Part shown: positions 18,825 to 59,648 of the stretch, one piece after another
Layout: the number at the start of each line of letters is the position of its first letter
How positions within the stretch are numbered: position 1 is the stretch's first letter
DNA from: Methanosarcina acetivorans C2A
GTDB lineage: Archaea > Halobacteriota > Methanosarcinia > Methanosarcinales > Methanosarcinaceae
Assembly: GCF_000007345.1 (NCBI RefSeq)
Contig: NC_003552.1
Span: 992,001-1,056,000 of the forward strand
DNA length: 64,000 bases
Direction: 5' to 3'
The notes under the pieces: model-generated
The model's database searches: none
The model's input: the letters and a program-made list of their open reading frames with translations, nothing else
Told to the model about the DNA's origin: nothing
Translations under genes and position numbers: made by a program

Positions 18825-19045
18825 CTTCTTTGTGGGAAAGGTCGCTTTCCTTCGTTGAGCTTGACAGGAAAGGTTTCGCATAACGAATAAGGGTATGGGG
18901 CTAGAACTATCAGTTAATCCTCTTGAGTTCAGCTCATTGATAAAATCCATCAAGTAGTCCTCTTGAGCGAAGCGTAGAGTAGCGAAAAGGACCGCGTACT
19001 CCCGAGGCGCAATTCGGGTGGCGCAATTCGGGTGGCGCAATTATG
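18825..19045. repeat. interspersed repeat copy at the 3' end of the methyltransferase gene
   Basis: The left part (GGGAAAGGTCGCTTTCCTTC, then a GACAGGAAAGGTT block) and the right part (TCCTCTTGAGCGAAGCG ... AAAAGGACCGCGTACTCCCG, then repeated GGCGCAATTCGGGT) match copies at 31460-31680 and, inverted, at 37469-37630. The right part holds palindromic units of the CCCGA...TCGGG type that can form hairpins. The copy overlaps the last codons and the stop of the methyltransferase gene, so the final residues of that protein (about CASP) come from the repeat. Confidence 0.7.
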
Positions 19046-20105
19046 GCGAGGCGCAATCATGGTGGGTCCGAACTCTGATTTTTCCGGTCAGGTAATATTC
19101 ATCTCTCGCTTCAACCATCGCTCTTATATTTTTGATCGGGGTCTTCGGGGCAATTCCGCATCCGGGAGCTAGTATATCAATACCGTCTTCCAGGCACTTC
19201 TGCGCTTCCAGTTTTATCTCCTCGCAGGTCCCGTTGAGCATAATTCCCGAAGAGGAAAGGTTTCCTATCAGTTTTGTCTTGCTTCCGACAAGTTTTTTTG
19301 CAGTTTGCAGGTCAGTTACTTTTTCTTCGATGCTGATTCCCTGAAAACCGCACCTTGAAAGGGTTTTAAGGATCGGGGTTGAGTTTCCGCAGACGTGTAT
19401 GAGCTTTATTCCTTTTCCTGACTTGCAGAAGCTTTCATACTCCGGTCTTATGAGGGCTTCCAGATGTCTGGGGTCAAGCATGTCCGGACCTGCTATTCCA
19501 TCCACAATGCAGACAGCATCTGCCCCGGCTTCGGAGAGGATTTCCGCATACGCCGAGCAGGTGGCTCCTGTAACTTTAAGGCATTGGCTTAAAGTTTCAG
19601 GTCTTCTGATCATCCATGTAAGAAAATTGTAAGTCCCAAGCAGCCTTGAAGCAAGGGATGCCGGTCCTTCCATACCTGCTATGAGGGGGACTTCTTCTCC
19701 TGCTTTTTCCCTCAGGATCGAGGTTACGTCTTTAATAAGAGGAATTCTTCCCCGCTGTGCAAAGTCCGAGGGCAGTTCCATTTTTTCCGGTTCCTTTGCA
19801 AAAGGGTTAGAGCCTGGAGAAGGCTGAATATCCTATCTGCCCGGGTTGACCTTGCAGCCCAGAGCTTCGGATAGGACCGTGAGGCAGAAGGGGTAGCGTA
19901 CGGCTTCAAGGCCTGCAAAGGTATGGGCTGAAAGGGCAAGGTCTGCCATTTTTTTCGCATCAAAATGAGCATCGGGCCAGGCCGCTCCGCTCTCTCTCAT
20001 GAGTTCGACGGTTCCGGTCTGGGTTACTGCAAGAACGGGGACTTTATCCACGGCTTTCCCGTGTAGCGTGTTCAGGAAACGGTCTCTTAAATCTGGATCT
20101 GCCAT
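19041..20105 (-). CDS. methylcobamide:CoM methyltransferase (MtaA/MtbA type) with in-frame TAG, probable pyrrolysine
   Basis: UroD-fold methyltransferase that would move a methyl group from a corrinoid protein to coenzyme M. The frame starts at ATG 20105 and meets TAG at 19833-19835 (codon 91). It then continues in the same frame to TAA at 19041, giving 354 residues against about 340 for the family. Both halves are needed: the N-terminal part (LHGKAVDKVPVLAVTQTGTV) and the C-terminal part with the zinc ligands H237, C239 (LIHVCGN) and C315 (APGCGI). The TAG sits in the loop before DIQPSPGSNPF, where relatives have ordinary sense codons. Methanosarcina decodes UAG as pyrrolysine, so readthrough is more likely than a pseudogene, although a decayed gene cannot be excluded. 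Termination at TAG would remove all zinc ligands. MtaA versus MtbA specificity cannot be decided. Confidence 0.85.
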
Positions 20106-20527: not shown

Positions 20528-21631
20528 TCAGAAGTTCTCCTGTTTAAGGGAGCTAATCGGAGTCTGGCTGTAGCCGTGATTGCTTTTTTCCGCCTTTATA
20601 TATGAAAGCTGCCTGTCTTCCAGTTTCCCACTTGCCGTTGTGTCCACAGTTCTGATAAGTTCTTCTCTGGGCACGGATGCCACCGCAGAGATTATCTTCA
20701 GCCTTGAGCGGGAATTCTTTTCTTTTTTGAGGATTTCAATTTCGGGTTTTTCATGTGCTGAAGTCACACTACCTTTTACAAAATTCTCTTTGTGTGCAAA
20801 GGAAAGTTTGATATGCCCTGTGAATTCGGGGTTAAGCTGTGTTACTCTCTTTCTTATGCTGTCCAGGATCTGCCCCGAAACAGAGACTGCCGTTTCAAGA
20901 GATATTTCCTGCGAAGTAATCTCAAACTCGGTTGAGTAAGCCGAAACCCCGGACATTTCAACGGAGTTTCTTGCTTCAATTGAGTTTTTTGCTTTTACTG
21001 AATTTCTCATTTCACAGGCAGTTTTATCCTGGCTGCTTACCCCGGCCAGCCTGAAAAATTTGTCCAGACCTTCTCCTCCCTGCCTGGCTGAGAAATGAAC
21101 GATCCTTGCTCTCGGGTTCAATTTGCGAAGAAGCAGACAGGTCTCCAGAAGTTTTTCCTGCCCTATGAGGTCTACTTTGTTTATGCCCAGGATCTCGGCA
21201 TCCTCTTTCTGATTTCGAACAAAATTCTGCAGGTCTTCTACGTTCGGGCTCAGGCTGGAGGGGTCTACAAGATTTACGATCGGAGTAAAACTAATCTCCG
21301 GAAGACCCATGCTTTCGATATTGCTTTTTATCTGTCTTGGGAAGGCTATCCCCGTGGGCTCTACTATAATAGTATCCGGATGATAGGAAGCCATAAGGTT
21401 CCTCAGGGTATATTCCATACTGATCCTGAGAGTACAGCAAATGCACCCGCTTGTAATTTCTCTGGTTTCTACCCCCTCTCCTGAGATAGTTTCCCCATCG
21501 ATCCCTACTTCCCCTATTTCATTGACGATGATTGCCGTTCGCTGCCCCTGGGCTCCAAGGTACTCGACAAGTTTTCTTATTGTTGTCGTTTTTCCACTCC
21601 CGAGGAAGCCTCCGATTATCATGCATTTCAT
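20528..21631 (-). CDS. CobW/P47K-type GTPase, putative metallochaperone
   Basis: 367 residues, ATG at 21631, TGA stop. The G1 motif GGFLGSGKTTT lies at the N-terminus. The metal-binding motif GCICCTL (CxCC) is at about residue 82-88, followed by IVEPTGIA (switch II/G3 region) and the G4 motif NKVD. These mark the COG0523 family of zinc, cobalt or nickel metallochaperones. The linker after residue 200 contains a degenerate run NSVKAKNSIEARNSVEM, and the C-terminal domain is divergent. It lies between the TAG-bearing methyltransferase and the chaperonin, inside a corrinoid methyl-transfer locus, so delivery of metal to a zinc methyltransferase or corrinoid enzyme is a reasonable guess. The gene has its own upstream gap and may be transcribed separately. 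Confidence 0.88.
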   Translation of the reverse strand: MKCMIIGGFLGSGKTTTIRKLVEYLGAQGQRTAIIVNEIGEVGIDGETISGEGVETREITSGCICCTLRISMEYTLRNLMASYHPDTIIVEPTGIAFPRQIKSNIESMGLPEISFTPIVNLVDPSSLSPNVEDLQNFVRNQKEDAEILGINKVDLIGQEKLLETCLLLRKLNPRARIVHFSARQGGEGLDKFFRLAGVSSQDKTACEMRNSVKAKNSIEARNSVEMSGVSAYSTEFEITSQEISLETAVSVSGQILDSIRKRVTQLNPEFTGHIKLSFAHKENFVKGSVTSAHEKPEIEILKKEKNSRSRLKIISAVASVPREELIRTVDTTASGKLEDRQLSYIKAEKSNHGYSQTPISSLKQENF

Positions 21632-22320: not shown

Positions 22321-23928
22321 TCATCTCTTAGGCACTATCTCGTCTATCCTGAGTACTTTTTTTGCCGTTTCCGTACCCGCAATAATTGCGAGTTTCTTTA
22401 CCGTTGCCGAGTCGTAGACTTCAGGTCCCCTGTCCGTTACCTTTCTTGATAGGTCTATCCTTGCCTCCAGTCCTCTTGCATACGAATTCCTCATCTGCGC
22501 CATTGCATCTATTTCATTCATTCCCATATTTCTGGCAAGGATCACAGGAATTTTTTCAAGGGCCTCGGCATATGCCTGGACTGCCAGCTGTCTTTTCCCT
22601 GTCTGCGTTGTCGCAAAGAGCCTGACCATATGCGCAAGTTCAAACTCAATTGCCCCTCCTCCGTTTACGATTTCCCTGTTTTTCCGGAGGAACGCCGCAT
22701 TGTTCAGGGCATCATCAACAGCTTCTTCCACCTTGTCAAGCCCGTATTTCACAGGCTCCCGGATCAGGATGGTGGCTATTGCTTTCTCTTTCACGGTGAT
22801 GAAAACAAAATTTTCCCCGTTTTTCTTTTCAAGTTTTATACTGTCTGCCTTTCCGAGGTTGCAGGGGCGAATCTCGTCCGGCTGTGCCATCAGGGTCGTA
22901 CCTGTGGCTTCCGCAAGCTTTTCGAGGTCTTTCATCTTTAGCTTCTTGAAAGCCAGAATATTACTGTCCCTGAGCAGAGTTTCGATATAGGGGTCAATAT
23001 CTCCTTCGGAAAAGAGGACATTTGCTCCCGAATCAATAATCTTCCGGGCAATTTCCCCACAGAGCTGCTTTTTCCTCTCCTCAAAAAGGAGCGCAGTCTG
23101 CACGGAATCCATTTTGAGGTTATGCTGGGGGTTCAAATATCCGCTTTTTATCTTGAGGTCGTAATTCGTAATCAGGACCGCCGGGTTCTGGTAGCTTTTT
23201 GGCATATCCTCCCTTGCCGGGTTTTCGTCCATGATCAGGCCTTCTACTGCAACGATTTCCGGTCCGCCTTTCTTTTTGAGGATCTTGACGTTCCGATTCA
23301 GGTCAAGTCTCCGGTCCTGTTTTTCGGAAAGGTGGCTTATAACTCCCAGGACAATATCCGTAACAGCCTGTGCCTGCTGCCTTTCAATCCCCTTCCCTGT
23401 TGCCGAGCACATTATGGTTGTGCGGATATCCTCTTCTGAGGCCTGCCTTATGCTGTACTGCAGCATCTCATACGTTTTTTGCATGGCAAGTTCGTACCCT
23501 TCGATAATAATTGTCGGGTGTACCCCTGCCCTGATAAGCCTGACCGCGTTTTTAATCAGGTTGCTTGCAAAAATGACTGCCGTTTTTGTACCGTCTCCGC
23601 AGGCTTTGTCCATAGATTCCGCGAGCTTTTTGAGGGAGGTCACGATCGGGTGAAGTACATCTATTTCCTTTAAGATGACTTTCCCGTCGCTTGTAACGAA
23701 AATATCTCCCACCGGATTTACTATTATCTTATTCATCCCTTTCGGGCCGAGGGATGAGCCAAGAAGTTCGTCAATTTCTATCGCTGCCCTTTCAAGCTGG
23801 TCGATCAGCTCTTCTTCCTTTACCGGCTCGTCAATCAGGATCTTATCCCTTATCGTCCGCGCCAGTTTTGCCATTCCGTCCTGGCTTTCGGGATTAGTGC
23901 TGCCCGGTGTTTTTAGTTCGCTTGCCAT
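22321..23928 (-). CDS. divergent group II chaperonin (thermosome) subunit
   Basis: 535 residues, ATG at 23928 preceded by a strong GAGGAGAGG site. Group II features: LGPKGMNKIIV near residue 62, the ATP-site motif CGDGTKTAVIFASNL near 110 (GDGTT in most thermosomes), GGGAIEFELA, and the C-terminal ILRIDEIVP. Several normally invariant stretches are altered and the C-terminus lacks the usual glycine-rich tail. It therefore resembles the extra, species-restricted Hsp60 paralogues known in M. acetivorans rather than the core alpha/beta/gamma subunits. It probably forms or joins a folding ring. Its position next to the ASKHA ATPase and mts genes suggests a specialised client, which is inference. 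Confidence 0.9.
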   Translation of the reverse strand: MASELKTPGSTNPESQDGMAKLARTIRDKILIDEPVKEEELIDQLERAAIEIDELLGSSLGPKGMNKIIVNPVGDIFVTSDGKVILKEIDVLHPIVTSLKKLAESMDKACGDGTKTAVIFASNLIKNAVRLIRAGVHPTIIIEGYELAMQKTYEMLQYSIRQASEEDIRTTIMCSATGKGIERQQAQAVTDIVLGVISHLSEKQDRRLDLNRNVKILKKKGGPEIVAVEGLIMDENPAREDMPKSYQNPAVLITNYDLKIKSGYLNPQHNLKMDSVQTALLFEERKKQLCGEIARKIIDSGANVLFSEGDIDPYIETLLRDSNILAFKKLKMKDLEKLAEATGTTLMAQPDEIRPCNLGKADSIKLEKKNGENFVFITVKEKAIATILIREPVKYGLDKVEEAVDDALNNAAFLRKNREIVNGGGAIEFELAHMVRLFATTQTGKRQLAVQAYAEALEKIPVILARNMGMNEIDAMAQMRNSYARGLEARIDLSRKVTDRGPEVYDSATVKKLAIIAGTETAKKVLRIDEIVPKR

Positions 23929-24346: not shown

Positions 24347-26281
24347 TTATGCCAGCTTTCCGGTCGTTCCTACGCCGACTCCGACCAGGCGGGTTTCCAG
24401 TGGGGCTTTTCCCCTGCTTCCCACATCGTTCTGTTTAAGGTCAAATTTCACATTGTCCATGTCAAGCCCGTATCCGTCCATGTACTCCGAAATCAGCCTG
24501 TGGCTGAGCTTGAGCCCGTAGTCCAGGGCTTCTCCATAGTCTTCAAAGACATCTTTTCCAAGCCTGGAGAATACCGAATACTCTGCATTTCCTGCTGCTG
24601 AAGGGCGGATAAGGATCTCTGTCCTGTGGACGATTTTTCCTGCAAGGGCACCCACAGCATTTCCCACCTCATGGAAAGCGGGGATCCTTATGTCTGCATC
24701 CACCGCCTCATTCAGTCCTTTCAGGTATGCCCTTACAGGGGCTCCTACCAGAACTACAGGGACTTTTATGCGGAATTTCATGACATCTTCTTTTGCCAGA
24801 AGCTTTCCGATGTCCTCTTTTTTCAGGTCTTCGGCAAAGAAGGAAACCAGTTCAAGAGTAAGTTTTCCCACGACTTCAGCCTTTATCCGGGCTGAAAACT
24901 CCTCTGCTCCCTGTTTGAGGGTTTTTCCAAGCATTTTTGCTCCTATAAAAGAAGCTCTTCCGTCCCACCTTGCATATTCTCCGAGCACGTGCAGGGCATC
25001 GGTTGGAGTAAACCCGATCTGGCTTAAGTGCCTTTTACGGATGAGGTTTTTAAGAATTCCTGCAAACAAGAGCGGGTGTTTTCCTGTCCTTTCCGAAATC
25101 TCGGATATCGAAAGAGGCTCTGTTCCGAGCTGTTCGATAATTGCCCTTTCGTCTTCTTCGAGTTCCCCGCTTAGAAGTTCGGGGGAGTTGATCCCGTTCC
25201 TTACGAAAAAAGAGGTCGGTTGTATGATCTCGTCCATTATGCGCTCGTTAGGGGTATCATTTTTCTCCAGTTTCTCCAGAATCTCCGGGAACTCCGAGGC
25301 GGCAAGACAGAGGGGAATTACTCTTGCAGGGCCAAGAAAGGGTTTTCTTCTGATCCAGACCAGGCTGTCCCCGCCAAGGGCCGAGGTCTCCATCCGGATC
25401 GCTTTTACCATTGTTTTCCAGCCCCCGACTCTTGCTCCGGAATCGCTGATCTCGGGGATGCCTCCGGTAATCATGGCAATGTCGGTACTGGTGCCTCCGA
25501 CGTCCACGGTTGCACAGGTATCCAGGCCTGTGAGGTGGGCAGCCCCTACAAGGCTTGCTGCGGGTCCGGAAAAGATTGATTCGACAGGTTTTTGCAAGGC
25601 TTCTTCAATGCGGACCAGGGACCCGTCGCACTTCATCATCATCAGGGTCGCCTTAATTTCTTTTTCTTCCATTACTGCCTGGACGGATTTGATAAACTGC
25701 TTGCTTACCGGGATCAGTTCGGCATTCAAAAGGGCGGTTACTGCCCTTTCGTAAGCTCCCAGGCTCAGGGAAAGCTCATGCCCGCAGACAACAGGCATAT
25801 CAGTTATTTCCTGAATTACTTCCTTGACTCTTAGTTCATGTTCCGGGTTCCGGACTCCGAAGTAGCCGGAAACGGCAAAAGCAGCCACTTTGTTCTTTAT
25901 CTGCCTGACAAATTCTTTTACGGTTTCCAGGTCTTCAAGGGGGGCAACTTCGTTTCCGTCGGAGTCGTGTCCTCCTCCTATTGAGATTACATAACGGCTG
26001 GCAAGTTTTTTCGGGATGGTGTGCCCTATAAGGATCAGCCCTGCGGGATAGCCTTTGCCTTCAAGAGTAGTATTGGTAGCAAGGGTTGTGGAAACAGAAG
26101 CGAATTTTATCCTTTTCAGGTAATCCGGGTTCAGTCCCTCAATTGAGTTCTTTATCCCCCTTATAAGGTCAGGATAAGTTGTAAGCGCTTTATTTGACTC
26201 GATCACGGTCCCGTTTGACATATCTATAACAGCGGCATCGGTATATGTCCCACCGGTATCAATGCCCAGTCCCAGATACAT
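24347..26281 (-). CDS. hydantoinase/oxoprolinase-family ASKHA ATPase
   Basis: 644 residues from the ATG at 26281, which has AGGAGG six bases upstream. A TTG at 26299 upstream of that site is unlikely to be used. Phosphate-1 motif GLGIDTGGTYTDAAVID at the N-terminus, then the HyuA N-terminal domain, SGPAASLVGAA and ATVDVGGTSTDIAMITGG (phosphate-2/adenosine region) typical of HyuA. The C-terminal third is unlike catalytic hydantoinases and includes a winged-helix-like patch (GTEPLSISEISERTGKHPLL). No HyuB partner is nearby. ASKHA ATPases also serve as reductive activators of corrinoid proteins. A gene next to a corrinoid methyltransferase fusion may do that, but it lacks the iron-sulfur cysteines of RamA. 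Confidence 0.85.
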   Translation of the reverse strand: MYLGLGIDTGGTYTDAAVIDMSNGTVIESNKALTTYPDLIRGIKNSIEGLNPDYLKRIKFASVSTTLATNTTLEGKGYPAGLILIGHTIPKKLASRYVISIGGGHDSDGNEVAPLEDLETVKEFVRQIKNKVAAFAVSGYFGVRNPEHELRVKEVIQEITDMPVVCGHELSLSLGAYERAVTALLNAELIPVSKQFIKSVQAVMEEKEIKATLMMMKCDGSLVRIEEALQKPVESIFSGPAASLVGAAHLTGLDTCATVDVGGTSTDIAMITGGIPEISDSGARVGGWKTMVKAIRMETSALGGDSLVWIRRKPFLGPARVIPLCLAASEFPEILEKLEKNDTPNERIMDEIIQPTSFFVRNGINSPELLSGELEEDERAIIEQLGTEPLSISEISERTGKHPLLFAGILKNLIRKRHLSQIGFTPTDALHVLGEYARWDGRASFIGAKMLGKTLKQGAEEFSARIKAEVVGKLTLELVSFFAEDLKKEDIGKLLAKEDVMKFRIKVPVVLVGAPVRAYLKGLNEAVDADIRIPAFHEVGNAVGALAGKIVHRTEILIRPSAAGNAEYSVFSRLGKDVFEDYGEALDYGLKLSHRLISEYMDGYGLDMDNVKFDLKQNDVGSRGKAPLETRLVGVGVGTTGKLA

Positions 26282-26656
26282 TACATTCCTCCTCTTCAAT
26301 TTCTATGGCTCTTCACCTTTTATTGCCGGTCTCCTCTCGCCTGCTTCAGTCCCGTCTTTAATGCTTTTGTCCCTGTCTCTAACATCTCTATAGCCAGCCT
26401 TCCCTCTGCTTTCTCACAACCCTTGAGGGCCAGGCGTAATTTCAAAGGCAAAAACCTTTTTCAAAAAAGATCTTACAGTTTTACTTTACGGCTTTTATAT
26501 GGGGAGAGGCGGAGAAGACAAATCAGTCTTAAATCCGCCGTTCCTGTTTTTTGGTGCCTTTATGGCGAGTCCAACCGTTTTTGTCTCTTTTTGACTTTCA
26601 GTCCCGTTTTTTTATCTTTACATGGACTGCTCGTTTTTCTTTCGTTTTTTAAATGG

Positions 26657-27005: not shown

Positions 27006-28928
27006 TTACCCCATTATGTTTTTCTGTAGTTCCGGGCCAAGTTCTTTTACAACGTTCACCATTGCCTGCACGGTTGTCAGGGGACCACCTGGCGGGATCT
27101 CACAGCCGGAGGACAGGATATACTTGGACTGGAGGCCGTTCTCCTTGAGCACTGGCAGCACGTTTTCGAGCAGGTTCTTGGTGTCGTCCTTTACCTTCTG
27201 CACTCCGGCTGCCGATCCGTCCATGAACTCAACGGGGTTGACTTCTCCCATCATACAGCACATATCTCCGTATTTGGGGATGAGGTCTGCGTAGTTCTGG
27301 GACCCCTTGTCTCTGGACTTCTCGTAGTAGGCGTAGCTGTAGAGGGCTGTTCCGAACTTTCTGATCTGGGTCTCGAAGTGCACGGCGTCAGCACAGTTGT
27401 GGATGATGTACGGCTGGTTGTACTGCTTGAATATGGGGATCTGCTGGTCGTAGACAAACTTTCCGTCAAATTTCCAGTAGTCCTGCTCGCTCATGATCAC
27501 ATTATTGGACCAGAGGTTGTCGATACAGAGAGCATCACAGGCGTCTTCGTTAAAGAAGAGCTCTGAGAGCTGGCAGACATAGTCAGTACACTTCTGGACA
27601 GCTTCAAGGACAACATCCGGCTGGGTCTTCATGTCCATAAGGACGCGGTCTGCACCCATCAGCTGGGTAAGGGTGAGCAGGGGGCCCTCGTGGAAGCCGA
27701 CAAAGGGGGTGTTGAGTTCCTTGTTGAGTTTTTCCTTTGCTTTCTTTGAGGCCATGACCAGTTCATAGCCGCGGGTACCTTCCTTAAGTTCGGGGACTTC
27801 GATCTTCTCATAGTCCTTGATATGTCCTTCAGAGGATGGGGTGTCGTCTTCAGGGTATTTGATCTTACAGCCGAAGTCTGCAGATGTTGCGGAAAGGTCA
27901 ATCAGGCCTACAAACATGTCAAGGTCCAGGTATTTTGAGCCAAGGTATGCGCTCTGTACAAATGCATCTTCATTTGTGGCATACTCTTTGTAGGTTACAG
28001 GGACAAACTTCCTGAGGACACCGCAGGCGAGAGGGTAGACAGGCAGGTGGTCGACCTTCTTGTCGGACATGGCAGAAATAGTCCTGTCGATGTGGGTCAT
28101 TTCCTCCTTGCTCTTCACGCCAATGCTTTCGAACTCTTCTTTGATCTTGTTAGCAGTTTCAAGCCCGACATCCACTTTATCGGAAACTGTCTTCTTTGCA
28201 AGAATCTCCCTGTACTTGATCTTCCCGAGGTTGATCTTCTCTTCACTCCACCTTGCAGCCTTGGGCTCAAGTTCCTTTACGGCTTCGGACGCCCAGGCGC
28301 TTGCGTGCATTGCATCGGGGTGGGTTGAGTCTGCTCCGATTCCGGACGCATACTCTTCGGAAACGGGAGCTCCTCCAATCATGACTTTCATGGAGTCGCG
28401 GATGCCTTCTTCCTGAAGGATTTCAATGACTTTTTCCATATTGGTCATGGTTGTGGTCATCAGGGCACTCATGGAGATGATGTCGGCTTTGCGTTCCTTT
28501 GCGGTTTCGACAAATTTCTCGATAGGTACATCTGCCCCGAGGTCGATCATCTCAAATCCGCCTGCACTGAGCATGGTCTTTACAAGGTTCTTCCCTATGT
28601 CGTGCACATCTCCTTCAATCGTCCCGATGACTCCCACAGCCTGCATGGCTTCTCCTTCCTTTATCATCTCAGGGCTGAGGATGTCCATGCCTGCATACAT
28701 TGCACCTGAAGCCAGGAGCAGGTGGGGTACGAAGGCTTCTCCTTTTTCGTACTGGTCACTGACAATTGCCATCCCTCTTGCCAGCCCGTTGACAATAGCG
28801 TCGTAGGGGTCAACGCCTTCTTCCAGGGCTTTGTATGCCAGTTCTTCTGCGAGGTCATCGTCTCCGTCGACGACAGCTTCCGCTAATTGGTTCAAAATAT
28901 CTGCTGCCATAAAAAACGCTTCCAACAT
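27006..28928 (-). CDS. mtsF: corrinoid protein / methylcobamide:CoM methyltransferase fusion (methyl-sulfide type, MtsD/F/H family)
   Basis: 640 residues. Residues 1-230 form a B12-binding corrinoid domain: a helical cap, then GDVHDIGKNLV with H109 as the cobalt ligand, then SALMTTT and GGAPV. Residues about 290-640 form a UroD-like methyltransferase with zinc ligands H510 and C512 (IIHNCAD) and C609 (SSGCEIP). This one-polypeptide layout is that of MtsD, MtsF and MtsH, which M. acetivorans uses to transfer methyl groups from dimethylsulfide and methanethiol to coenzyme M. The neighbours (ASKHA ATPase, chaperonin, Msr regulator) resemble the mtsF locus as I recall it, so the symbol is tentative within the D/F/H set. 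Two ATGs are possible. 28928 is listed; 28910 has a better placed GGAAG site. Confidence 0.9.
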   Translation of the reverse strand: MLEAFFMAADILNQLAEAVVDGDDDLAEELAYKALEEGVDPYDAIVNGLARGMAIVSDQYEKGEAFVPHLLLASGAMYAGMDILSPEMIKEGEAMQAVGVIGTIEGDVHDIGKNLVKTMLSAGGFEMIDLGADVPIEKFVETAKERKADIISMSALMTTTMTNMEKVIEILQEEGIRDSMKVMIGGAPVSEEYASGIGADSTHPDAMHASAWASEAVKELEPKAARWSEEKINLGKIKYREILAKKTVSDKVDVGLETANKIKEEFESIGVKSKEEMTHIDRTISAMSDKKVDHLPVYPLACGVLRKFVPVTYKEYATNEDAFVQSAYLGSKYLDLDMFVGLIDLSATSADFGCKIKYPEDDTPSSEGHIKDYEKIEVPELKEGTRGYELVMASKKAKEKLNKELNTPFVGFHEGPLLTLTQLMGADRVLMDMKTQPDVVLEAVQKCTDYVCQLSELFFNEDACDALCIDNLWSNNVIMSEQDYWKFDGKFVYDQQIPIFKQYNQPYIIHNCADAVHFETQIRKFGTALYSYAYYEKSRDKGSQNYADLIPKYGDMCCMMGEVNPVEFMDGSAAGVQKVKDDTKNLLENVLPVLKENGLQSKYILSSGCEIPPGGPLTTVQAMVNVVKELGPELQKNIMG

Positions 28929-31721: not shown

Positions 31722-32522
31722 TCAGGTCTTCTCTAATTCGATTTCCCTTATTTCCTTTGAGTTTTTCATATAGTGCAAAAAGAGGTCTTCTCCCCATTTG
31801 AGGGCGGTTTTTTCCAGACTCATCATTGCATGGTTATGATAGATCCCGTTTTTGTAGAAGAGGGACAGGGCCATGAAGTGGTCCGTTACCAGGCTTGAAG
31901 CAAGCCTTATGGGGCAATCGCAGACGAAGATTTTTGCATTATCTCTGTCCAGGTATTCTTTGAGGGCTGTGCTGTATTCCTTTTTCAACCTTTCAAACAC
32001 AGGTTTTGTGATTATCAGGGATACGTCCGCTCCTTTTTTAATAAGCTCTACATAGGTTGAAGGGTAAGCAGGGTTGAAATAGGATGAGACTTCCATGACG
32101 TGGGCTGAGCGGGTCAGTTTTTCTTCGATTTTCTGGGGAATTTCATACATCCTGTCCAGGTCGGGTTCGATGAATTCACAGTGTCCGAGGTCATCGATCC
32201 GGTCCAGGAGGTGGACAGGGATAGCACTTATATTATGGTTTTCCCAGTAATCCATGTTCTCCGAAAATACTTCCAGGGTGTTCAGCAGAGGCCTCATTTT
32301 TTTAACGACCACTTTTCCGATATCTGATAGCTTGTACAGGTCGTCTTCATGGATGATAAGCCCCTGGCTGATGAGGATCTTGATCTGGGTCATGATCGCA
32401 CTTGAAGTCACGTTGAGGATGTTTTTAATGTCATCAATATTCCTGGGCTCCTCCATCAATAGCAGAAGAAGGTCTTTTCTTTTGTCCGAAAGAAAAAGGG
32501 TACCCAACAGTTCCAGTTTCAT
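31722..32522 (-). CDS. Msr-family transcriptional regulator (winged helix plus DUF1724)
   Basis: 266 residues, ATG at 32522 with GGAG about nine bases upstream, TGA stop. The N-terminal 75 residues form an ArsR-like winged helix (FLSDKRKDLLLLLMEEPRNI, then a recognition region at NVTSSAIMTQIKILISQGLI). The remainder is the DUF1724 sensor domain, with ADVSLIITKPVFERLKKEYS and a metal- or ligand-like CDCPIRLASSLVTDHFMAL patch. Msr proteins in M. acetivorans activate the adjacent methyltransferase genes; MsrC, MsrF and MsrG control mts genes. This gene should therefore regulate the mts fusion at 27-29 kb. It lies 119 bp downstream of the sensor kinase gene on the same strand, so the two may be co-transcribed. 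Confidence 0.9.
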   Translation of the reverse strand: MKLELLGTLFLSDKRKDLLLLLMEEPRNIDDIKNILNVTSSAIMTQIKILISQGLIIHEDDLYKLSDIGKVVVKKMRPLLNTLEVFSENMDYWENHNISAIPVHLLDRIDDLGHCEFIEPDLDRMYEIPQKIEEKLTRSAHVMEVSSYFNPAYPSTYVELIKKGADVSLIITKPVFERLKKEYSTALKEYLDRDNAKIFVCDCPIRLASSLVTDHFMALSLFYKNGIYHNHAMMSLEKTALKWGEDLFLHYMKNSKEIREIELEKT

Positions 32523-32641: not shown

Positions 32642-35569
32642 TCAAGACTCTATTTGATTCATGCGTCGGGTTTCAGGCTTCTTTTTAGGGAGCCTTACAT
32701 GCATGGTTGTGCCCGAACCTTCCTCGCTTTCTACCCAGATTTCCCCCTCATGGGCGTTGACAATGTTTTTGCAGATATAGAACCCCGATTCAAGGCCCTG
32801 ATACCTGCGGGTGAGGGAATCGTCCACCTGGTAGATCCTGTGGAAGAGGTGGGGGATAAGCCTTTTCTGGATGCCTGTTCCGCTGTCCTTTAACGTTATG
32901 TGGATAGTCTCTTCTTCCTCTTCAGCTTTCACTTCCAGGGTTCCGCCGTGGGGGGTAAACTTGATAGAGTTGCCCATCAGGGTCGTGAAAAGGTCTGTCA
33001 GTTTTTGCTTGTCCCCACGGATAGGCGGGAGGCTTGCAGGGAGTTCCTTTTCGACCTTCAGTTCTTTTTCATCAATCAGGAGGACAAGATTGAGGTAAAC
33101 ATCCGAGAGTATCTTCTTGATTTCTACCTCGCCAAAGGAATACTCTATCTTCCCTGCCTGTTCCAGGCTCAGGTAGAGCAGGGAATCAACCATGTGTTTC
33201 AGCCTTTCCGAGCTGTTGATAACGGTGTCGATTGCCTTCTGCTGCTGGTCTTCAATTGCCTCCCAGGTCTCAAAATCAATAAAATCGCCGTAGTCAACCC
33301 TCATAAGGGGCAGGCTTTCGGTCATAAATTCCGCTTTTATCCTGTTCAGGGACCTCAATTCGTCATTGGCTTTGGAAAGATCTTCCGAGTAAGCTTTCAG
33401 GGCGTCTTCAAGCTGCTTTCTCTGGATGAGCTGCCACATGCCCTGCATAAGCAGAGTGAGCTGGCGCAGGTCCGATTCGTCATAGGGCTCGTCTTTGTTT
33501 CCAACTCCCGCAACCGCAACGATCCTGTCCCCGTCAAACACTGGAACATTCATATGGCGGGTAAGGTGTACGTGGTCTTTAGGGTATCCTTTTTTCAGGG
33601 AACTCGGGGCTGTGTAGTCATTTGTGATTATAGGCTTACGCTGCCGGACGGCTTCTCCCCAGAGCCCTGTAGTCTTTACGGGATAAATGAAGCGCTTGTC
33701 TTCGATAGCACATTCTTCCATGGCGCTCTTTGACCAGGAGTGCATGATCAAGGAGGTTTCGTAGGCATCCATGAAGGCAAGGTACCCGAGTTTGCTGCCC
33801 GTAAGCCTTACCGCCTCTTCGCGGGCAAAGTCCGTGATCTCTTTTAAGGAGGCTCCCGTCATCTGGTTGAGTTTCACAAGGGCTTCGAGCCTGGCTTCGT
33901 TCAGTTTCTGGGCAGCTTCTGCTTTTTTGCGCTCTGTGATGTCCCTGGCAACCGAGAGGATAGTTTTCTTGCCTTCATAGTCAATGATCCTGGCGCTTAC
34001 TTCGAGGGGGACAACAGTGCCGTCCTTGCAGACCGCCCCGGCTTCATAGACCCTGGACCCCTCGCTCTGGATTTTCTTGAGGTTCTCCCGGACCGAGGCC
34101 CAGTACTCGGCAGGGATAATCTCTTCGGCTTCCATTTTCAGGATCTCTTCCTTGTCATATCCGAGCCTGCTTACCACCGCCTGGTTTACATCCATGTAAC
34201 TTTCTCCTTCGGGCTCGCGGATGTACAGCTGGTCATTGATGTTATTGAAGATGGTCCTGAACTTGTGTTCGGATTCTTTGAGGGTTTCTTCTGCCAGCTT
34301 ATGTTCAACTGCAATGGCTGCCAGCTGGGCGTTTGTTTTCATAAAGTCCAGGTCTTCTTTTTCAGGCCGGTGTACTTCGCCGTAGTACATGGAAAAGACT
34401 CCCAGGACTTCTCCTGAGGACGAAATGATTGGTTCGGACCAGCAGGCTTTAATCCCGGCTTCAGCCGCAAGGTCCCTGTATTCAGTCCAGTAGGGATGTT
34501 CCATCACGTTATCTGTGGTAACCCTTTTTTTCATGTAGGCAGCAGTTCCAAAAGACGCCGCCCCAAAACCGATCTCAATCCCGTCGGTCTTCTGAATGTA
34601 ATAAGCAGGAAGTTCGGGGGCAACGCAGTAAAAGAGGTGCTTTTTCTCCCGGTCAAGTAGCATTATCGAGCATCTCGAACCGGGCCGGATCTTTTCAACG
34701 TTCTGGACGAGGAGCAGGAGCATTTCTTCCAGGGGGGCTCCCGACGCTAGTTTTCCCAGTACCCGGTTTTGCCCTTTGATCATCTCTTCGGCAAGCTTAC
34801 GTTCGGTGATGTCCAGGACTATCCCCTGGTAATGAACTATTTCTCCTTTTTCATTCCTTTTGATAAGGGTCCTGTCATCTATATACCTCACTTTACCCGA
34901 CTTTGTCAGGACCCGGTACTCCTAGGTGCATTCTTCATACCCTTCCCTGGAAAACCTTGCCACTTCGGAACGGATTCTTTTCCGGTCTTCAGGGTGTATC
35001 AGGTCTTCAAACTTTATTTTTCCTGAGGTGAAATCTTCTGGGGTATATTCCAGCTTTGTAATATTTTCCGAGACAAATTCAACAGGCCATCTTTCTTCCG
35101 GCTTGCACAGAAACACAAACACGGGGCTGCTTTTGATGATGTTTTTGAGTTCGTTCTTCTTTTTCAGCGCCTTTTGTACCGATTCTTCGGCTTTTTTGCG
35201 CTGGGTAGCATCACAGAGAGTACCCTGGTAATGGCTCACGCGTCCATTTTCATCTCTCCGGATCAGAACCTTTACCTCAACCCAGCGCACTTCCCCCGAA
35301 GCTGTAAATATCCTGTACTCCTGGGTCAGCTCCGCACAGCCTTTTTCCGAACATCTGGCAACTTCCTCTTTTACCTTTTCCTTGTCTTCAGGGTGGACAA
35401 TATCAAGGTAACGTACGCCTCTCAATGTGAATTCTTCAACTTCATGGCCGAAATTCCTGACGTTTTCAGTGATGAGTTCGACAGGCCAGTTTTCAGTCGC
35501 CTTGCATAAAAAAATGACTATAGGGCTGCTGTTTATTAGTGATTCAAGATTTATATCGAACTTTTTCAT
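32642..35569 (-). CDS. PAS-PAS-GAF-PAS-GAF sensor kinase (MsmS/RdmS-like) with in-frame TAG
   Basis: 975 residues when the in-frame TAG at 34922-34924 (codon 216) is read through. Domains: PAS1 1-135, PAS2 136-250, GAF1 270-430, PAS3 435-550, GAF2 560-720, dimerisation region 735-800, HATPase 825-965. The TAG lies inside PAS2, where PAS1 has LTQEYRIFTASGEVRW and PAS2 has CT[TAG]EYRVLTKSGKVRY, so it replaces a glutamine (CAG to TAG). The second GAF holds C620, in the domain where MsmS carries its covalent heme. The usual H-box histidine is absent (EFMTESLPLMRV), while N-box NSIKFTP and G1 DSGTGI are intact. MsmS and RdmS are described redox sensors for Mts regulation. The kinase sits upstream of the Msr gene, which fits. 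Confidence 0.85.
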
Positions 35570-58703: not shown

Positions 58704-59648
58704 TTATCTACTCTCCTCGTACCGTATCCTCGGGTCCAGGCAGGTATATGATATGTCCACAAAAAGATTGACGAGAACGAATATTACTGCCACAAACAAC
58801 ACGCCACCCTGGATCATTGCAAAATCGCGCGAATATATCGAATCCACAAGGAGTTTTCCTATTCCCGGCTAGGCAAAGATCGTTTCAACTATAACAGACC
58901 CTTCAAGAATCCTGCCGAATTGGATGCCTATAACTGTTATGACCGGAATAAGGGCATTTTTCAGGGCATGTTTTACGGTAATGAGCTTTTCTGTCAACCC
59001 TTTAGCTCTTGCGGTTCTTATATAATCCTGCCTGAGCGCATCAAGCATATTCGAGCGTGTAAATCTTGTAAGGACGGCTGCCATCCCGGTTCCGAGCGTC
59101 AGGGCAGGAAGTATCATATGCTCAAAGCTCCCGGACCCATAAACCGGAAACCATCCAAGGTGTAAGGCAAAGAGGTGGATAAGTAGTAAAGCAAACCAGA
59201 AACTCGGCATGGACACGCCGACCATTGCCCCCATCATGCTAAGATTGTCAAATAGAGAATATTGCTTGCTTGCAGTGATGATTCCGAGCGGGATTGCTAT
59301 TATCAGAGCTATAAACATACTGGCAAGTGCAAGCTTAAGCGTCGCCGGGAACCTGTCCAAAATCTCTGATAAGACCGGTTCTCCGTTTATCAGGCTGCAG
59401 CCCAGGTCCCCATGGAGTAAGTGCTGCAGCCACTTGATATACTGAATATGGACCGGGGCATCCAGGCCTTCTTCTACTCTTATCCGTTCGATATTTTCCG
59501 GGGTCAGGCTCTCTGCCCCGTGCCGGGCGAGGGCAATCATCTCGGCCGGGTCTCCGGGTGTAAAATGCATTATCAAAAAAGTCAGCATTGTCACACCAAG
59601 AATAACGATGAACATCAGAACCATTCTTTTCAAAATGAATTTCAGCAT
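58704..59648 (-). CDS. nickel/oligopeptide ABC transporter permease (NikB/DppB type) with in-frame TAG
   Basis: 314 residues with readthrough, the normal NikB length. ATG at 59648. The frame carries the family N-terminus (RMVLMFIVILGVTMLTFLIM, then FTPGDPAEM) and the EAA loop (DYIRTARAKGLTEKLITVKH). It runs to VETIFA, then TAG at 58869-58871 (codon 260), then continues in frame as PGIGKLLVDSIYSRDFAMIQ through a last transmembrane helix to DPRIRYEESR and TAA. In the family the residue before PG(I/L)G is nearly always tryptophan, so a TGG-to-TAG change explains the codon. Stopping at TAG would remove the final helix. Pyrrolysine insertion is the simplest way for the protein to work. A gene inactivated by mutation is the alternative. 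Confidence 0.88.

Follow-up and report, generated by a model that had tools for sequence, protein, structure and literature searches.

A TAG codon shared by four Methanosarcina species in a predicted methylcobamide:coenzyme M methyltransferase gene of the mts locus

Does the TAG at codon 91 of a methylcobamide:coenzyme M (CoM) methyltransferase gene in Methanosarcina acetivorans C2A end translation, or is it read as an amino acid; and if it is read, is the inserted residue selected or only tolerated? The gene lies within the window that we analyzed, a stretch of 64,000 nucleotides (NC_003552.1, positions 992,001 to 1,056,000; all positions below are those of the window), whose relevant features are collected in Table 1. 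The answer that we prefer, and consider quite probable, is that the gene encodes a functional enzyme of the mts locus, whose TAG was gained once, is decoded by tRNA-Pyl, and places a pyrrolysine that is tolerated at variable residue 91.

We take PMC1914089, PMC1242214, and PMC3639795 to be the papers of Fujita et al. (2007), Chaudhuri and Yeates (2005), and Have et al. (2013), respectively. The first-pass annotation of this DNA implied that a CoM methylase gene with an internal amber codon was novel, but such a gene was already on record: the annotation of M. acetivorans includes a methylcobamide:CoM methylase with an amber codon, which was set aside as species-specific (PMC1914089), and a 2005 prediction table includes an M. 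acetivorans read-through open reading frame (ORF) homologous to the M. mazei methylcobalamin:CoM methyltransferase (PMC1242214), which is apparently our target gene. Five other annotated genes with in-frame UAG have been called "not conserved" (PMC3639795), and the only pyrrolysine proteins that a 2021 review (PMC8211752) mentions besides the methylamine methyltransferases are transposases and Thg1. In the literature searched, which mostly left out subscription papers, we found no report that the codon-91 TAG is conserved across species. What is new here is the survival of this TAG across species and the locus that it shares with a kinase whose pyrrolysine is invariant.

Table 1. Positions of the target gene, its neighbors, and other TAG-containing frames in the window
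Feature	Position	Strand	Remarks
MtaA-family methylcobamide:CoM methyltransferase gene (target)	19041..20105	-	354 residues if UAG is taken as a sense codon
In-frame TAG, codon 91 of target	19833..19835	-	kept in 4/13 orthologs
Dispersed repeat overlapping 3' end of target gene	18930..19060	-	43 matches counted in own genome
CobW-family GTPase gene	20528..21631	-	between chaperonin and TAG gene
Thermosome-like (Cpn60/TCP-1) chaperonin gene	22321..23928	-	mts locus
Hydantoinase/oxoprolinase-like gene	24347..26299	-	mts locus
Fused corrinoid/URO-D methyltransferase gene, taken as mtsD (MA0859)	27006..28928	-	named by PMC11267899 and position
FilR1-domain/ArsR-HTH transcription regulator gene	31722..32522	-	
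PAS/GAF sensor kinase gene, evidently RdmS (MA0863)	32642..35569	-	TAG at codon 216
In-frame TAG, codon 216 of kinase	34922..34924	-	12/12 orthologs
Nickel/oligopeptide ABC permease gene	58704..59648	-	TAG at 58869-58871

The TAG gene and its surroundings

A single frame runs on the minus strand from the ATG at 20105 to the TAA at 19041, just as the first-pass annotation had it; it comprises 354 residues plus the stop, and the TAG at codon 91 is its sole internal stop. This TAG is not a sequencing error, because the same codon is TAG in three other genomes. The proposed fit to the MtaA/MtbA family also held up: the product scores 496.6 bits against the NCBIfam model MtaA_Meth (NF040654), whose curated cutoff is 400. 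Its only Pfam match is URO-D, and its sole PDB relative at an E value of 1e-10 is 4ay7, a methylcobalamin:CoM methyltransferase; we take 4ay7 and 4ay8 to come from M. mazei. Residues H237, C239, and C316 are present and aligned to 4ay7. The first two had been named correctly as zinc ligands, whereas the third had been placed one residue too early, at C315; a His and two Cys serve as zinc ligands in MtaA, and we assume that the same applies here. On these matches, the target is an MtaA-type methylcobamide:CoM methyltransferase gene, whose product is predicted to transfer methyl groups from methylcobamide to CoM. It resembles MtaA and MtbA (PDB 4ay7/4ay8) in exceeding the curated MtaA cutoff, in aligning over its full length, and in having the zinc-ligand residues, but differs from them in its in-frame TAG at codon 91 and in its position in the mts locus. 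An AlphaFold model of the target computed with three sequences had a mean pLDDT of 33, too low to place residue 91.

The dispersed repeat that overlaps the 3' end of the gene has 43 matches in the M. acetivorans genome and 47 and 25, respectively, in two others (G019 and G006). It apparently lengthens the reading frame in several orthologs and is probably the cause of the variable C-terminal tail of the target gene.

The target lies downstream of, and on the same strand as, mtsD and the hydantoinase-like, thermosome-like, and CobW-like genes (mts gene names here come from the literature and from positions). A fused corrinoid methyltransferase gene of the mtsD or mtsF type occurs upstream on the same strand, within ~7 kb, in 11 of the 13 genomes that have the target gene; in the other two (G017 and G021), the contig ends before the upstream neighbor. 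The nearest such neighbor is mtsF-like in seven genomes (78 to 81% to the M. acetivorans mtsF) and mtsD in four, and the closest paralog of the target in its own genome (54%) is 787 bases from an mtsH-like gene. Placement in the mts locus suggests that the target enzyme works in methyl-sulfide methyl transfer. The regulator listed between mtsD and the kinase is presumably of the Msr type, and the CobW-family gene has no match in the other 12 regions examined. In one genome (G026), a fluoride riboswitch (L051, 7096-7169, minus strand) lies near mts/methyltransferase genes; the gene behind it resembles CrcB by eye.

Codon 91 among Methanosarcina orthologs

The codon-91 TAG is not species-specific. 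A search of 30 Methanosarcina genomes, including that of M. acetivorans itself (G000), yielded 13 close orthologs with 71 to 100% identity, and the alignment that the first-pass annotation had suggested for judging TAG conservation gave a divided answer: TAG is kept in four of the 13 (G000, G006, G019, and G026), whereas the other nine have a sense codon, namely, TAT (G017 and G024), TAC (G009 and G010), TTG (G007 and G022), CGC (G025), CGT (G012), or AAA (G021). Residue 91 in the sense orthologs is thus Y, L, R, or K. Sense orthologs combined with frameshifts or the loss of catalytic residues had been proposed as signs against a pyrrolysine enzyme; sense orthologs do exist, but frameshifts and lost ligands are absent, as is a conserved downstream start. 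None of the 13 orthologs has a further internal stop or frameshift, and the zinc ligands H237, C239, and C316 are retained among them. Among 111 genomes of the family, a search at an E value of 1e-125 added only three matches (54 to 56%), from two other genera, with no TAG within the match.

In an ortholog tree built with codon 91 left out, the four TAG carriers and G024, which has TAT, form one five-species clade (support 100/99). The fewest changes that explain codon 91 are two, one gain of TAG and one reversion to TAT in G024; independent gains of TAG would require at least three. A tree in which the four TAG sequences were grouped without G024 gave a worse fit (p-AU = 0.023, for a group that was named after the data had been seen). 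We propose that the ancestor of this clade gained the TAG once, at a site that varies among orthologs, and that one clade member would later have reverted to Tyr.

Silent divergence within the target gene differs sharply before and after codon 91 in two comparisons, 0.02 versus 0.14 for L019/L021 and 0.02 versus 0.34 for L024/L025; this contrast suggests gene conversion or recombination inside the gene.

Translation past codon 91 and the decoding of UAG

The sequence beyond the TAG is under purifying selection. In all six pairs of carriers, dN/dS after the TAG is 0.087 to 0.124 (dS, 0.52 to 0.81); after codon 91 in 36 pairs of sense orthologs, it is 0.079 to 0.181. Were this part of the gene untranslated, about 4.8 to 5.1 stops would be expected per carrier lineage, and none is seen in any of the four. 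Simulations at the silent rate reached zero stops in 26 to 39 of 5,000 runs per carrier lineage, where each tip was assigned one-half of the silent distance between the closest pairs, a length that is possibly high for G019. Very probably, translation continues through the codon-91 TAG.

These results bear on two other accounts of the gene. TAG could be a true stop, leaving either a decaying pseudogene or a source of the 90-residue peptide alone; indeed, TAG does terminate translation in M. acetivorans, as indicated both by our scan of ORF ends and in print (PMC2933860). Against this, purifying selection past the TAG equals that in the sense copies, and four lineages have persisted with no further stop or frameshift, which makes a true stop very improbable; the pseudogene reading was rejected, as there are no added lesions and no relaxed selection. 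We give just as little credence to two polypeptides, residues 1 to 90 and the product of an internal start, that assemble together. The ATG at codon 109 in the window does open a frame of 246 residues, but the other three carriers have a Leu codon in its place, and the first start past the TAG falls at codon 109 in G000, 127 in G006 and G019, and 145 in G026. Internal restart is unlikely because these first downstream starts differ among the carriers.

The means to decode UAG are widespread in the genus. PylS was found in 26 of the 30 Methanosarcina genomes, including G000, G006, and G019, and tRNA-Pyl (CUA) in all four genomes in which a pyl region was examined (G000, G006, G019, and G024). 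Both pylS and tRNA-Pyl are present in three of the four TAG carriers, the three with near-complete genomes. The assembly of the fourth, G026, yielded no pylS, tRNA-Pyl, MtmB, or MttB, and its MtbB is only a fragment; these absences say little because the assembly is 60% complete. One in-frame TAG each is found in MtbB (seven of seven full copies) and MttB (three of three) of G006 and G019. G024 has two copies of tRNA-Pyl on one contig (L066, 3443-3514 and 3641-3712), beside a run of N; the pair is perhaps an assembly duplicate.

Codon UAG is ambiguous in M. acetivorans, and most TAGs elsewhere resemble real ends. In the first 400 kb of its genome, 11 of 319 ORFs of at least 100 residues end in TAG, and coding-like sequence continues past the TAG in only one of the 11; this ORF is located in the pyl/mtmB region, and we infer that it is mtmB. 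The scan, based on codon usage, is a weak detector of read-through because 6 of 157 TAA ends and 2 of 151 TGA ends also passed its threshold. Predicted base pairs after the codon-91 TAG showed no compensatory changes (0 of 27), in a set of nine sequences that are too alike to exclude a PYLIS-type structure.

To our knowledge, pyrrolysine is the only residue known to be decoded from UAG in Methanosarcina cells. The best reading of residue 91 is, very likely, pyrrolysine inserted by UAG read-through: tRNA-Pyl would decode codon 91, giving a full-length enzyme with pyrrolysine at this residue. An amber codon introduced into a reporter showed 20 to 30% read-through (2010 review, PMC2933860), so part of the target product may stop at residue 90; some of it probably does end there.

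The target would then share with MtmB, MtbB, and MttB an in-frame TAG that is decoded in the same cells. Unlike them, it is a URO-D protein, of an unrelated family, and while their pyrrolysine lies in the active site in all methanogen copies (PMC8211752), that of the target is absent from 9 of 13 orthologs. The possibility that the target is itself a methylamine methyltransferase with a catalytic pyrrolysine was ruled out by its Pfam match to URO-D only and by the presence of UAG in only 4 of 13 orthologs.

Pyrrolysine at residue 91 and in the RdmS kinase

The first-pass annotation had offered two roles for the pyrrolysine, neutral or regulatory. The neutral one fits best because codon 91 is a sense codon in nine of the 13 orthologs, including a member of the TAG clade; regulation found no direct support here. 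Only 14 of 338 alignment columns have at least four residues among the nine sense orthologs, and column 91 is among them; it is also among the three of those 14 variable columns that are codon-identical in the carriers. Since residue 91 varies (Tyr, Leu, Arg, and Lys), a pyrrolysine at this position is probably tolerated rather than catalytic. The chance that the TAG would remain unchanged in all four lineages is 0.035 at the rate of fourfold sites; its retention hints mildly at constraint and fits a tolerated residue that is under at most mild constraint.

That same retention in four lineages could instead mean that the pyrrolysine is selected, with output tied to pyrrolysine supply such that the enzyme is made mainly alongside the methylamine enzymes. 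The gene also belongs to the mts locus, and mtsD expression is reported to increase without pyrrolysine (PMC11267899); that report, however, concerns mtsD and not the target gene. Given also that nine of the 13 orthologs do without TAG, including one within the TAG clade, and that column 91 is variable, we regard selection for pyrrolysine as improbable, and return to a tolerated residue as the favored explanation. A parallel is Thg1 of M. acetivorans, a case of pyrrolysine acquired by neutral evolution: there, too, TAG occupies a dispensable site and relatives have sense codons (PMC2933860). The Thg1 TAG is reported for M. acetivorans only, whereas the target TAG is common to four species; on the other hand, the Thg1 pyrrolysine has been seen physically, whereas that of the target is predicted from sequence.

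We also screened the whole window for frames broken by a TAG (at least 50 residues on each side); of the 16 candidates, two besides the target looked real. One is the PAS/GAF sensor kinase gene, whose codon 216 is TAG in all 12 Methanosarcina orthologs (82 to 100% identity), with a median dN/dS after the TAG of 0.058 over 66 pairs. Under neutrality, this TAG would have persisted with a chance of 5e-5, calculated for 11 of the 12 sequences; the kinase tree omits G014, which has a two-residue insertion. The paralog of the kinase in M. acetivorans, beside mtsH, has Lys at position 216. RdmS has been expressed as an O216K variant (PMC7542351), and because codon 216 matches this residue, the kinase is evidently RdmS and its pyrrolysine is already in print; the conservation of its TAG across orthologs is new, as far as the literature was searched. 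The RdmS TAG looks selected because 12 of 12 orthologs carry it, more than neutral drift would leave. Thus, the target and RdmS have the same kind of in-frame TAG in the same mts locus, but the RdmS TAG is invariant and that of the target is not (4 of 13).

MsmS and RdmS regulate methyl-sulfide genes (review, PMC6944256), and RdmS binds and hydrolyzes ATP but, according to a 2025 paper (PMC11784639), is not an autokinase. Together with the reported response of mtsD, this leads us to conjecture that RdmS, rather than the target methyltransferase, is the better candidate for control of the mts genes by pyrrolysine supply. A more speculative scheme, which we think rather unlikely, is that the mts locus as a whole is wired to pyrrolysine supply, with the UAGs of RdmS and the CoM methylase acting as a switch between methylamines and methyl sulfides. 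The second PAS domain of RdmS would retain a pyrrolysine in all the Methanosarcina orthologs found, and the CoM methylase of the locus would have gained a second pyrrolysine in one clade; when pyrrolysine is short, RdmS would be truncated, the mts genes would be derepressed, and less full-length CoM methylase would be made.

The target would add to the pyrrolysine proteins an enzyme whose TAG has outlasted speciation, with a sense reversion inside the clade, and the history of codon 91 offers a natural test of the ways in which proteins gain and lose pyrrolysine. One locus appears to hold two kinds of TAG, tolerated in an enzyme and invariant in a sensor kinase; this contrast makes regulatory decoding of UAG outside the methylamine enzymes testable in a genetically tractable organism.

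The other real-looking candidate, and the third TAG case in the window, is the nickel/oligopeptide ABC permease gene. Its TAG site is TGG (Trp) in all 16 other sequences examined, and an 89% ortholog in G023 is intact; because this TAG is found in a single species and is recent, it may be either tolerated or a sign of a broken gene.
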